From: Caballeronia sp. LZ062
GTDB taxonomy: Bacteria > Pseudomonadota > Gammaproteobacteria > Burkholderiales > Burkholderiaceae
Assembly: GCF_031450785.1 (NCBI RefSeq)
Contig: NZ_JARTWB010000003.1
Coordinates: 310,001-374,000, forward strand
Length of the DNA: 64,000 nt
Direction of reading: 5' to 3'
Below are positions 44,859 to 49,540 of this stretch, one piece after another. Under the pieces are notes generated by a model. It had not been told where the DNA came from, did not search any database, and saw only the letters and a list, made by a program, of their open reading frames with translations. Position 1 is the first letter of the stretch. Every line of letters starts with the position of its first letter. A program made the translations under genes and the position numbers.

Positions 44859-46208
44859 TCAGAACGTGTTGCCTTGTGACGCGCCCGCGCGCTTTGCGAT
44901 GAGCGTCGGCAGGCGCGGCAGCAGTTGCGGCCAGTGCGTCGCTTCCTGCGCCAGATGCGCAAGCAAACCGTGGCAGCCGAACTGATCCGCGGCGAGCCGC
45001 GCGATCACGCGCCGCGCGATTTTCCAGACATCGACATCCGGCGCGACCGTGTGCGCCATGCGCTCGATCGTCTCGACGGAGCGCGACAACAACACCGCCC
45101 GCGACGCGATCCGCCCGTGCGCCGCGCTGAACATGTGCTCGGCGGGCGCCTTGCCGATGGCGTCGAATAGATGGGAGACGTGCGTGCCCTGCCGCGCATC
45201 CGGCGACGAGAAGCGCTCGGCCTCGCGGCGATACGTCGATTCCACGCGCACTTCGTGATGCGCCGCGTGCTGCTCCGGCCGCCCGTGTTCGAAATGCGTG
45301 CGCGCCGCCGCCTTGTGATCGCCTTCCAGCAGCGAATTCGACACACCGACGATGAAATCGCGCTCGTGCGCAGCGAAAAAGGACATGGCGTTATCGGCTT
45401 CGAGCACGATCTGGCCGCGCGTGCCCGGCTCGACACTCACGCGCGCTCCCGCCGCATCCAGCCCCGCGTGATACACGCCCTGCCCGAGCGCCATTTCGAA
45501 GAACGCTTCGATCAGCGTCGCGACGAGATCGGCCTGTTGCAAGCCGTGCGACGCGAGCGCATGCCCGTCCGACAGCGGCACGGTTTCGATCGCGCGAGTG
45601 GTCAGCACGGCGTCGTTGCAGAAATCCCAGAGGACTTCGGGCACCGCGAGGCGGCCGTCTTCGCGCAGACGGTAGCGCAGATAGCTCTGGTCGGCGGCGC
45701 GCTGGCGTAGGTCGATCATCGTATTCACGCTCTCGCGCACGAGGGCGAGGCACTGCACCGCCTGCAGTTCGCGAGCCGTCGCCGAGCGCCGCTCCGCAAA
45801 GCGCGCGGCGGCAAGCGCGAGATCGAGATCGTCGGCGAGTTCCTGGCGGGCATCGGCGCGAAGCAGCGTGACGCGCACCGGCACGCCATCGATGCGCGCC
45901 GCGTGCGTCTGTTCCGCAATGCCCGAGCGCAGCGGCAACGCGCTGATATCCGTCATTTCGGCACGCGGCGCCGCCGCCAACGCGATGGCGCATGCACTGC
46001 GGAATCGCGCGGCGTCGTAAGGCGTGAAGAGACCCTCCATCTCCGAGAGCGCCACACGCACAGCGGCTTCCGCGAGCGCGGGATGGCGCGTGAGCGCCCC
46101 CGACGCGAGCGAAAACACGCGCGGCAATTGGCGCAGCGCCGGCATACCGGCGGCGAGCGGCGCGGCGCGCGCGCCGTGCAACGCAAAGAAGCGCGCGATG
46201 CGCTGCAT
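44859..46208 (-). CDS. UbiB/ABC1-like protein lacking kinase motifs (probable pseudokinase)
   Basis: About 450 residues, no signal peptide. The order of segments recalls the ABC1/AarF/UbiB atypical kinase family: SGIAEQTHAARIDGVPVRVT (alanine-rich loop and beta strand), ADDLDLALAAARFAERR, VNTMIDLRQRAADQSYLRYR (place of the ExD motif), LAVPEVLWDF, then YHAGLDAAGARV at 246-257 where UbiB has HADPHPGN, and VLEADNAMSF where UbiB has DFG. The catalytic residues are replaced. ATG 46208 is shown, but RRLATLWRLGRAFAR upstream in frame looks coding, so a TTG at 46292 may be the true start. Divergent from the serine hydrolase. Family call is tentative. Confidence 0.6.
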   Translation of the reverse strand: MQRIARFFALHGARAAPLAAGMPALRQLPRVFSLASGALTRHPALAEAAVRVALSEMEGLFTPYDAARFRSACAIALAAAPRAEMTDISALPLRSGIAEQTHAARIDGVPVRVTLLRADARQELADDLDLALAAARFAERRSATARELQAVQCLALVRESVNTMIDLRQRAADQSYLRYRLREDGRLAVPEVLWDFCNDAVLTTRAIETVPLSDGHALASHGLQQADLVATLIEAFFEMALGQGVYHAGLDAAGARVSVEPGTRGQIVLEADNAMSFFAAHERDFIVGVSNSLLEGDHKAAARTHFEHGRPEQHAAHHEVRVESTYRREAERFSSPDARQGTHVSHLFDAIGKAPAEHMFSAAHGRIASRAVLLSRSVETIERMAHTVAPDVDVWKIARRVIARLAADQFGCHGLLAHLAQEATHWPQLLPRLPTLIAKRAGASQGNTF

Positions 46209-46396
46209 CGACGCGCCGTCGTGGTTCGAATGGCTTTCGCGGGCGAATGCCCTGCCGAGACGCCAGAGCGTTGCGAGTCGTCGGACGGACAAAAGAGGTC
46301 TCTTAGGCTTGAGGGTGCCGTGGCATCCGGCTTGCTCGATTTCCACATCTTGGAGCACGAATCGCTCCCGCTTGCCGCGTACTACGGTCAACCGAC

Positions 46397-47383: not shown

Positions 47384-47514
47384 AGTCGGACGCGTTGTTT
47401 CGCGTTCCTCGCCGCTTCGTTTCTTAACTGAGCGCAGATGAAAGCGGCGCGCGCAGGTATTCTCGCTTTGCGTCCGTTCCGATGGCGGGCCGCTCACGCA
47501 AGCGAGGTATCGGC

Positions 47515-47865
47515 ATGAAGACCTTCGACATTACGGTAGACGCGCAGGGGCGCGTCGTCGTTTCGCACGCCGAGCCCATCGGCGAGCATTGCAAGAGCCG
47601 GGCGCGGCTGCTTTCGTCGCTGGTCGGCATGATCGCCGCGCCGGGTGCATTCGAGCACTTCTGCACGTTCCCCGATTCGATGAAGCGCGACCTCCTGAGC
47701 CTCATGCACTCGGTGGCCGAGGAAAGCCTTCCCCTTCTCACCGCGCTCGAGCAACACACCGCGCAGTCCTTCTTCGACAAAGGCGTGCAGGCCGCGACCG
47801 AGCAACGGCGCCCGGAACTCGCGGCCAACGCGCCGCACGAGCCTATCGATTACACGCAGCGGTGA
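47515..47865 (+). CDS. Small conserved protein, family member B
   Basis: 116-residue protein of unknown function, from the ATG at 47515. It begins FDITVDAQGRVVVSHAEPIG, continues HCKSRARLLSSLVGMI, then RDLLSLMHSVAEESLPLLTA and FFDKGVQAATEQRR. The same order of elements occurs in 14987-15328 and 48643-49056, so this is one of three paralogues in the window. Followed within 210 bp by the Cas8c-C-terminus-like gene on the same strand. Confidence 0.65.
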   Translation: MKTFDITVDAQGRVVVSHAEPIGEHCKSRARLLSSLVGMIAAPGAFEHFCTFPDSMKRDLLSLMHSVAEESLPLLTALEQHTAQSFFDKGVQAATEQRRPELAANAPHEPIDYTQR

Positions 47866-48072
47866 TTCCTGCCGCGCGGCAGTAAAAGGCGCGCTTCGTC
47901 AATGTAGATTTTTGTCGATATGCGATGCGAATTATTTTCGCTACGGTATCGTAATGCGTTCGCGCAATAACATATCAATATCGCGATATCGGGAACCGCG
48001 CGAATGCGGCGTCCCGTTGCGCATGAGGCAATCGAGAGCGCCATGAGACAACCATCACAAGAAGGACGCGCC

Positions 48073-48483
48073 ATGCAGCCGCCGGTCGACGCGAGTATCG
48101 AACGAACCATGTACATCCTCGGGCAAATTGGCGCGATCGTCTGTCACGAACGCGGCCCGCGCCCGAACACGGCGATTCTCACGACCATGGCTTCCAGTCC
48201 CGCCGACGGGCTGTGGCTCGCCGTCACGCGCATGAACGAACTGTGTCCGGCCGTGCGGGGGCCGCGCCGCACGCTGCTGCAGTGGAAGCGCCGGGAGGTC
48301 GCGCGCCTCGCGCGTATGCTGCCGCATCCGCTGCCGGGCGAGGCTTGCGCGCAAACGCAAGTCCCGTTCTGGGCCGGCTACTGCCAATATTGGGAAGATG
48401 TGCTGAAAGAGCACGTCGAGTGCGAAGTCGACGCGCCCGCAGTCGCCGTGGACGACGTTCCGGCCCGGCGCGTCAACGCCTGA
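48073..48483 (+). CDS. Stand-alone protein resembling the C-terminal part of Cas8c/Csd1 (Cas11c-like)
   Basis: 136-residue helical protein. From residue 11 the sequence RTMYILGQIGAIVCHERGPR, NTAILTTMASSPADGLWLAV and, near the end, LPHPLPGEACAQTQVPFWAG, YCQYWEDV follow the order of conserved features at the C-terminus of type I-C Cas8c/Csd1: Y-LG, N-A/T-I, SAT/SSP-A, then LP-L, Q, F-x-GYY-Q. In type I-C systems this part is also made separately as Cas11c. There is no cas gene or repeat array nearby. ATG at 48073 has AAGGA 6 nt upstream; ATG 48043 is an alternative. Lies between two members of the small-protein family. Homology needs profile confirmation. Confidence 0.55.
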   Translation: MQPPVDASIERTMYILGQIGAIVCHERGPRPNTAILTTMASSPADGLWLAVTRMNELCPAVRGPRRTLLQWKRREVARLARMLPHPLPGEACAQTQVPFWAGYCQYWEDVLKEHVECEVDAPAVAVDDVPARRVNA

Positions 48484-48642
48484 AACCTCGCATCACCGCG
48501 AAAAACCGGCAGTTGCCGCGAGCCAGCAAGTCGGGCACACTTCGCGCGCCCGCGCGCAGCCGTTCGTCTGAATGAGCACGAATGCTTTCTTGCCGAAGAA
48601 GATGGCGCGGTGCGCCATGTATCGAGCAATGAGGAAGAACAG

Positions 48643-49056
48643 ATGAGCGAAGCGAAGATCACGATCAACCCGGACGGGCATCCTGTCGTCGAGCATGCAG
48701 TCACTATCGAAAAGCGCAGCACCGATGTTGCGCGCGCGGTGGCGGCGCTGTCGGACGTGCTCGCGAGCGGCGACGGCGCAGGCGTGGGTCAACCGGTGCT
48801 GATCGAGTTGCTGCGCACGCTCGCGCACGAACAACTCGCGCTGACCGAGGCGCTGTCCGACTACACGGGCGAAGTGTCGCTGGAGGAGGCGTATCGCCGA
48901 ACCTATCGACGCGCGTTCAGAAAAGGCTTCACCGCCGGACTGCAGCGCACGCTGCCCGCGCGACCGGTCGACCGTCACGACAGCGCGCTCGCGACGCCCG
49001 CTGCCGCCGCCGGCACGTCGCGCAACGACGCACTGCGCCGTCTCAAGCAGATCTAG
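48643..49056 (+). CDS. Small conserved protein, family member C
   Basis: 137-residue protein from the ATG at 48643 (GAGGA 7 nt upstream). It starts KITINPDGHPVVEHAVTIEK, continues VARAVAALSDVLASG, QPVLIELLRTLAHEQLALTE and FRKGFTAGLQR, the same layout as 14987-15328 and 47515-47865, with an added basic C-terminal tail. The middle insert (YTGEVSLEEAYRRTYRRA) makes it longer. Convergent with the orphan response regulator at 49076, 19 bp away, just as member A is convergent with the receiver at 14403. Confidence 0.65.
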   Translation: MSEAKITINPDGHPVVEHAVTIEKRSTDVARAVAALSDVLASGDGAGVGQPVLIELLRTLAHEQLALTEALSDYTGEVSLEEAYRRTYRRAFRKGFTAGLQRTLPARPVDRHDSALATPAAAAGTSRNDALRRLKQI

Positions 49057-49075
49057 CCGCGCCGCTCAGGCGCCC

Positions 49076-49540
49076 TCAGCACTCGCGCGCCCGCCACGTT
49101 TCATGCGTCGAGTAATACGTGCGCATGACGTCGATCATGCGATCCAGCGGACTCGGTTTCACGAAATAGCCGTCGAACCCCGTGCGGCGCGCCCGCTCGC
49201 AGTCGTCGGGAGACGTGCGGCCGGTATGCGCGATCAGCATCATCGACTTGTCCATCGCGCGAATCGCCTCTGCCGCTTCCCAGCCGTCGCCGAGCGGCAT
49301 CATCAGATCCAGCAGCACTACGCCAGGACGCCATTTGCGCACGAGCGATACGGCGTCGAGGCCCGTATGCACCGCGCGCACCGTGAAGTCGGCGTCTTCG
49401 AACGCCAGACAGATGGCGCGCGTGGCCTCCAGATCGTCGTCGGCGATGAGCACGCGCGGTTCGTCGTGATGCGCGGCGCGCACCGGTATCTGCCAGACCG
49501 CTTCTTCGGGTAGATGTGCGTGTCGTTGCGTGGATTGCAT
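49076..49540 (-). CDS. Orphan response regulator (receiver domain only)
   Basis: 154 residues: a 25-residue lead and one CheY-like receiver (about 28-150) with acidic residues D34-D36 (VLIADDD), phosphoacceptor D78 (VVLLDLMMPLGDG), T106 (LIAHTGRTSP) and K128 (GYFVKPSPL), all present, so it should be phosphorylated. No output domain and no kinase gene nearby. Single-domain regulators of this kind often act on partner proteins. Its convergent neighbour is small-family member C. Confidence 0.88.
   Translation of the reverse strand: MQSTQRHAHLPEEAVWQIPVRAAHHDEPRVLIADDDLEATRAICLAFEDADFTVRAVHTGLDAVSLVRKWRPGVVLLDLMMPLGDGWEAAEAIRAMDKSMMLIAHTGRTSPDDCERARRTGFDGYFVKPSPLDRMIDVMRTYYSTHETWRAREC

Follow-up and report, generated by a model that had tools for sequence, protein, structure and literature searches.

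A candidate stand-alone Cas11c-like protein of Caballeronia with relatives on phages and plasmids: a possible decoy small subunit of type I-C Cascade

What might a protein that resembles the C-terminal part of Cas8c (Csd1), the large subunit of type I-C Cascade, be doing as a gene of its own with no type I-C locus around it? The question is raised by a 136-residue reading frame, hereafter Q, at 48073..48483 (+) of a 64,000-nucleotide stretch of the Caballeronia sp. LZ062 genome (the window, to whose positions all feature coordinates refer). A sequence-only reading had described Q as a separate gene resembling the Cas11c region of Cas8c and possibly domesticated for a new role. The protein indeed carries the motifs on which that reading relied, in the order in which they were quoted, and we list it as a candidate stand-alone Cas11c-like protein from its sequence, a predicted model, a PHROG match and profile-profile comparison. 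The ribosome-binding site that had been claimed for it is an AAGGA at 48062..48066 (+), 6 nt upstream of the ATG, recognised by sequence and conservation; an ATG stands at about the same place in 28 of 29 relatives, the exception being locus L026.

In a family-wide sample of 299 genomes, relatives of Q at E ≤ 4.7e-26 were found in 29, every one of them Caballeronia; nine extra matches in the same sample, at E 9.5e-5 to 0.0099, were taken as noise. Within Caballeronia, 34 of 58 genomes carry Q, and the 23 named loci come from Caballeronia and from species filed under Burkholderia. The alignment of Q contains 26 of the 29 loci (L026, L027 and L029 were left out as degraded), and the set used for dN/dS omits L071, whose reading begins at residue 6; the median dN/dS is 0.22 and the maximum 0.45 (252 of 253 pairs). 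Because of this spread and this median ratio, the frame is not a chance one: Q is a real ORF under purifying selection, with a conserved start and ribosome-binding site, and it is placed on a secondary replicon of Caballeronia, chromosomal and vertically inherited. No family was recognised for it in Pfam (E 10), NCBIfam or PADLOC, a comparison with PDB sequences returned chance-level sorting nexins only, and its NCBI label in Caballeronia sp. SL2Y3 is hypothetical protein. Q is short, divergent or broken in L026-L029, which come from four genomes of 3.7-5.1 Mb split into 300-520 contigs.

The gene order at this place is a beta-lactamase-family hydrolase (variable), smA (variable), Q, smB (variable) and a convergent response regulator. 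The small conserved protein smA (116 aa; 47515..47865, +) lies upstream of Q and smB (137 aa; 48643..49056, +) downstream. The two resemble each other distantly (25-29% in four related loci), which agrees with the earlier description of Q as lying between two members of a small-protein family; this family flanks Q in some Caballeronia and is missing from others, each of the two genes being present in only some relatives. A longer reading of smA (47482-47865) matched no Pfam, NCBIfam or PADLOC family and smA matched no PHROG, while smB gave sub-threshold family matches only. The response regulator that had been noted nearby is a single-domain, receiver-only protein (49076..49540, -; Pfam Response_reg, E 1.7e-19), and it is either the gene next to Q or separated from it by smB alone. 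No promoter- or terminator-like sites were found at 47800-49120. An AarF/UbiB-family protein, named from relative L242, is encoded at 44859-46370 (-) of the window and is a neighbour in 22 of the 23 named loci.

The absence of a CRISPR locus, as first claimed, is true of the window, where a simple script for repeats detected nothing like a CRISPR array, but it does not extend to the whole genome. The window lies on contig C3; contig C1 carries Cas1 and Cas7e, with a type I-E CRISPR-Cas operon and arrays at 875000-894000 (L130), whose cse2 frame is disrupted in the present assembly and intact in the four relatives listed. The same genome gave nothing against PF09709 (Csd1) at E 10 or PF05107 (Cas7) at E 0.001. 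Cas11c arises from an internal start inside cas8c; Q is a separate gene in a genome with no Csd1. Across the genus, a PF05107 Cas7, a family that is not specific to type I-C and also matches in Thermotoga and Haloferax, was found in 7 of 58 genomes, comprising none of the 34 with Q and 7 of the 24 without it (hypergeometric 0.0012, kinship ignored). A close type I-E Cas7e was found in 15 of the 58, all with Q (hypergeometric 6e-5, kinship likewise ignored). Csd1 rose above cut-off in 4 of the 299 family-sample genomes, three of which are Caballeronia, all lacking Q and all among the seven with a PF05107 Cas7; Csd1 is thus confirmed in three of the seven, the other four being outside the Csd1 sample. 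The mutual exclusion of Q and PF05107 Cas7 may be phylogenetic. CRISPR-like arrays lie near Csd1 in two of these Caballeronia genomes (L128, L129), and the same script found none around the third Csd1 (L127).

Direct sequence evidence linking Q to Csd1 is weak. The profile comparison that the sequence-only reading had named as its check gave a divided answer: Q had no match to the curated PF09709 at Pfam E 10, but a profile-profile comparison aligned it with the Csd1 C-terminus at E 0.0038 (score 23.2; none of 300 column shuffles scored as high). Against full-length Csd1 the match was in register at E 0.097. The Csd1 set comprised 28 of 30 fetched loci, L031 (wrong ORF) and L050 (truncated) having been dropped. 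When 8839 ORFs, the decoys among which include loci fetched for matching the Q profile, were ranked by HMM, one Csd1 came at rank 4 and the next at 25; in reverse, with Csd1 as query, the best Q came at rank 8 (E 2.7), and neither ranking is significant. One apparent bridge, a PF09709 match at G195:C9 that covered the Csd1 C-terminus only, was judged to be chance after its frame had been read.

Structure prediction points to the same family. An AlphaFold2 model of Q built from 24 sequences (pLDDT 77.5, pTM 0.72) has five predicted helices, at residues 5-23, 34-41, 43-56, 64-80 and 93-120, followed by a low-confidence tail at 120-136. In a Foldseek search of the PDB with this model, ranks 1-13 were type I-C Cas11c or Cas8c C-terminus throughout (probability 0.69-1.00; entries 8dej, 8dex, 8dfa, 9jhc, 9jhb, 8g9s, 8g9t, 8dfo, 8dfs and 7kha), in agreement with the first reading; since these chains are one family, they do not amount to thirteen independent hits. 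Rank 14 fell to probability 0.06 and ranks 14-50 stayed at 0.08 or less, so that above probability 0.1 only type I-C subunits match, and no Cse2, Csm2 or Cmr5 structure appears (best 50 of 58 matches in each case). The lowest E-value was weak, at 0.029. The model nevertheless indicates that the predicted fold of Q is that of Cas11c, and the extent of Q is close to that of the small subunit of D. vulgaris, which corresponds to Cas8c residues 489-612 (PMC7684278). In a library of viral structures three proteins matched the Q model above noise, of 98, 107 and 176 residues (probability 0.90-1.00), which we regard as further candidates for phage Cas11c-like proteins.

A family of mobile proteins closes the sequence gap between Q and Csd1. 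Among 38,880 PHROGs, the best for Q is phrog_12690, an unannotated family of phage and plasmid proteins. All 26 Q members match it at an E limit of 1, the best of the 12 listed at 4.2e-9 and the weakest at 0.0014; only 2 of 9 Csd1 C-termini do so (E 0.0016 and 0.014). When plasmids were searched by tblastn with the best-scoring Q member, matches came from X. translucens (E 8e-4) and Shewanella (E 0.4), with further weak ones at E 0.08 and above in Pontibrevibacter, Streptomyces and others. The X. translucens protein (P0003, 175 residues) and the Shewanella protein (P0004, 171 residues) match phrog_12690 over nearly their full length, at 2.5e-60 and 8.3e-47, and they led on to Mannheimia haemolytica phages and to seven IMG/VR loci representing three distinct proteins. 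The N-terminal domain of five such mobile proteins aligned with Q at E 8.5e-13 (probability 97.8%) and with the Csd1 C-terminus at E 1.5e-7 (probability 93.9%), these E-values being those of single profile-profile comparisons rather than of a database search; none of 150 column shuffles reached either score. Neither Q nor the mobile domain matched Cse2, the type I-E small subunit, by profile comparison. A model built from three phage sequences alone, without Q or Csd1 (best of five, pLDDT 83.5; the other four 47-75), likewise had only type I-C Cascade chains at PDB ranks 1-10, with probabilities of 0.28-0.85 and E-values of 0.95-3.2. From the predicted structures and this bridging family together, the proposed resemblance of Q to the C-terminus of Cas8c gains support, and we are highly confident in assigning Q and phrog_12690 to this fold and family.

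Within this wider family, Q is by sequence closer to the mobile proteins than to Csd1. The residue after the helix-1 glycine is arginine in 28 of 28 Csd1 and glutamine in 26 of 26 Q and in four of five mobile members. Likewise, FWxG is found in 26 of 26 Q and in all five mobile members; of 28 Csd1, seven lack the motif region and the remaining 21 all differ from FWxG there. In an unrooted tree of 59 domains, Q and the mobile members split from Csd1 with support of 100/99, on branches long enough to draw a program warning. Because these residues and this split join Q to the mobile family, a local cas8c is not its most likely source. The earlier suggestion of a domesticated Cas11c with a new role thus holds in part, the new role staying plausible.

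The mobile relatives carry a second, C-terminal part that is helix-turn-helix-like and probably binds DNA. In the X. translucens and Shewanella plasmid proteins it matches PHROG 3626 (2e-14 and 1.4e-16), families of transcriptional repressors (E 0.0016 and weaker) and, for the X. translucens protein, Pfam HTH_3 (0.0074) and YdaS (0.0051), all under the Pfam cut-offs; the Mannheimia and viral-contig proteins align across it. This part without the Cas11c-like part is common on plasmids: of 688 records matched, just four span 80% or more of the query, and among the 60 plasmid matches listed 55 take in only its residues from about 106 on. Q has either lost the helix-turn-helix-like part or never had one: of the 12 matches of Q to phrog_12690 that are listed, 11 stop between positions 95 and 97 of the 174-position profile, and that of L009 stops at 121. 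The neighbours of the relative on the conjugative plasmid of X. translucens encode ParB, an N-6 DNA methylase, a DUF932 protein, a single-stranded-DNA-binding protein, a TrfB-like protein and VbhA-Fic. In Mannheimia phage vB_MhS_535AP2 the relative follows one other gene in a two-gene unit that sits beside the integrase and for which a promoter and a terminator are annotated. At five loci (L230, L232, L233, L235 and L236) the phage or plasmid Cas11c-like gene is preceded on the same strand by a small gene or ORF of 64-196 aa, in an arrangement like an acr-aca pair.

Q itself was found on none of the phages and viral contigs searched. Six scans of viral contigs, whose queries were Q, Csd1, mixtures and patterns, yielded no stand-alone relative; L141 and L142 are full Csd1. 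A tblastn search of phages, for which four Q members and one Csd1 C-terminus served as queries, turned up nothing Q-like; the Csd1 C-terminus matched two fecal phage records. Anti-CRISPRs are expected on phages or plasmids of hosts that have the target system. For Q there was no phage or viral-contig match and PF05107 Cas7 was found in 0 of 34 bearers; its relatives are mobile by record, and two of their three host species have type I-C according to the literature, as judged from the strains of those papers rather than from the host strains of these plasmids and phages. In one study every M. haemolytica strain had a type I-C CRISPR (PMC4771134), and most examined strains of X. translucens have a CRISPR locus, which in those is type I-C (PMC4700564).

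Taken together, we propose that Q is a decoy small subunit of mobile origin, directed against type I-C Cascade, a tentative reading to which we give a probability of about 0.4. As a decoy, Q would take or block the Cas11c positions along the belly of type I-C Cascade and thereby spoil support of the non-target strand or recruitment of Cas3, as is thought for Cas-homologous anti-CRISPRs. In the mobile members, the C-terminal helix-turn-helix-like part would regulate the operon. In Caballeronia, Q might then act as an inhibitor resident in the genome, or be what is left of such an inhibitor; this would fit the absence of a Cas7 of the type I-C kind from Q-bearing genomes. In favour of this proposal count the type I-C fold matches of both Q and its phage relative, the homology to phrog_12690, the helix-turn-helix-like part, the type I-C hosts, the two-gene unit in the Mannheimia phage, the precedent of AcrIB3 and AcrIB4, and the distribution of PF05107 Cas7 (0/34 with Q, 7/24 without). 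Against it count the chromosomal, vertical inheritance of Q and its absence from every phage and viral contig searched, which are unlike typical anti-CRISPRs; the want of a PF05107 Cas7 as target in any of the 34 bearers; and the insignificant Q-Csd1 rankings, the small share of Csd1 C-termini matching phrog_12690 and the weak Foldseek E-values. Our confidence is lowered further by the lack of type I-C specificity of PF05107, by helix-turn-helix matches that stay under the Pfam cut-offs and by mixed evidence on charge.

The main rival to the decoy reading, which we consider rather unlikely, is that Q is a Cas11c-like protein repurposed away from CRISPR as a small helical adaptor that binds nucleic acid or protein and works with the neighbouring response regulator. 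Q is accompanied by a match to this regulator in all 29 loci of one set and in all 23 named loci of another (the sets overlap in species), the match is shortened or weaker where Q is degraded or divergent (L026-L029), and only two of 12 Caballeronia genomes lacking Q match the regulator at E ≤ 1e-30, both at loci without Q. Yet Q and the regulator are convergent and form no operon, those two genomes retain a 58% identical regulator without Q, and the adjacency may be simple inheritance, since the whole block is syntenic. Nor is charge a firm guide to binding: the pI of residues 1-116 is 7.8-9.9 in 23 sequences, but for the Q of the window it is 6.8 for the whole protein and 7.0 for residues 5-120. 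It is improbable that Q is what remains of a type I-C cas8c formerly at this place, its Cas11c portion having outlasted the loss of the N-terminal part; the size and predicted fold would fit, including the D. vulgaris boundaries given above, but the tree, the LGQ and FWxG residues common to Q and the mobile members and not to Csd1, and the absence of Csd1 from this genome and of PF05107 Cas7 from all Q-bearing genomes speak against it.

Two further accounts fare worse. That Q might help the type I-E system of its own genome in trans, as an additional small subunit, would fit its presence in all 15 genomes with a close Cas7e and the broken cse2 frame here; 19 of the 34 Q-bearing genomes have no close Cas7e, however, the Cse2 frame is intact in the four type I-E relatives listed, and Q resembles Cse2 neither by profile nor among the best 50 of 58 Foldseek matches, so that we think this very improbable. 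Scarcely credible, finally, is a fold-level coincidence among small helical bundles. It could draw on the best Foldseek E-value of 0.029, the direct profile E-value of 0.004 and the insignificant HMM ranking, but only type I-C subunits match above probability 0.1, Cse2, Csm2 and Cmr5 all being absent from the best 50 of 58; a second, independent model, that of the phage relative, agrees; and phrog_12690 connects Q and Csd1 by sequence.

Extending the decoy reading to the whole family, we raise the doubtful possibility that phrog_12690 and its relatives are unrecognised type I-C antagonists: look-alikes of Cas11c that would enter Cascade as defective small subunits and would regulate their own operon through the helix-turn-helix-like part, perhaps sensing Cascade levels, while the look-alike of Caballeronia would have become resident and left its bearers unable to keep type I-C. 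The relative in M. haemolytica phages would be an anti-CRISPR candidate in a species in whose prophages a published homology search reported no previously described anti-CRISPR (PMC4771134). A literature search, made largely among papers open without subscription, found none on a stand-alone Cas11c-like protein in Caballeronia. Q and its relatives would also provide an example, open to experiment, of a small subunit that exists apart from CRISPR.

Four known systems come closest to Q. Like Q, Cas11c and the Csd1 C-terminus form a helical bundle, the solved stand-alone Cas11c chains having 112-124 residues, and carry Y-x-L-G, P and Q-x-x-F-x-x-G-Y in the same order. Unlike Cas11c, Q is a separate gene with its own ribosome-binding site, away from any cas8c or type I-C locus and with no PF09709 match, and it has LGQ and FWxG where Csd1 has LGR and F[ASV]xG. 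Members of phrog_12690 share with Q the homologous N-terminal domain, LGQ (four of five) and FWxG (five of five); they differ in being mobile and in their helix-turn-helix-like C-terminal part, whereas Q is fixed on a secondary replicon. AcrIC10, a type I-C inhibitor of 94 aa from X. translucens that tends to pair with a helix-turn-helix gene (PMC7391736), recalls the phrog_12690 members in its host, the species of three mobile records, and in its helix-turn-helix partner, and it is similar in size to the Cas11c-like domain, a likeness drawn from its published description only. Cas-homologous anti-CRISPRs have been newly recognised: a review describes AcrIB3 as mimicking Cas5 and AcrIB4 as having 38% identity with the C-terminal domain of Cas8b (PMC13131331, section 12). 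AcrIB4 is, like Q, a stand-alone protein resembling the C-terminal domain of a Cascade large subunit; unlike Q it belongs to type I-B and has assayed activity, Q being by prediction its chromosomal, type I-C-like counterpart. A Cas11c-like family found on phages, on conjugative plasmids and in the own genome of a bacterial genus would extend this class to type I-C and add to it a helix-turn-helix-like architecture.
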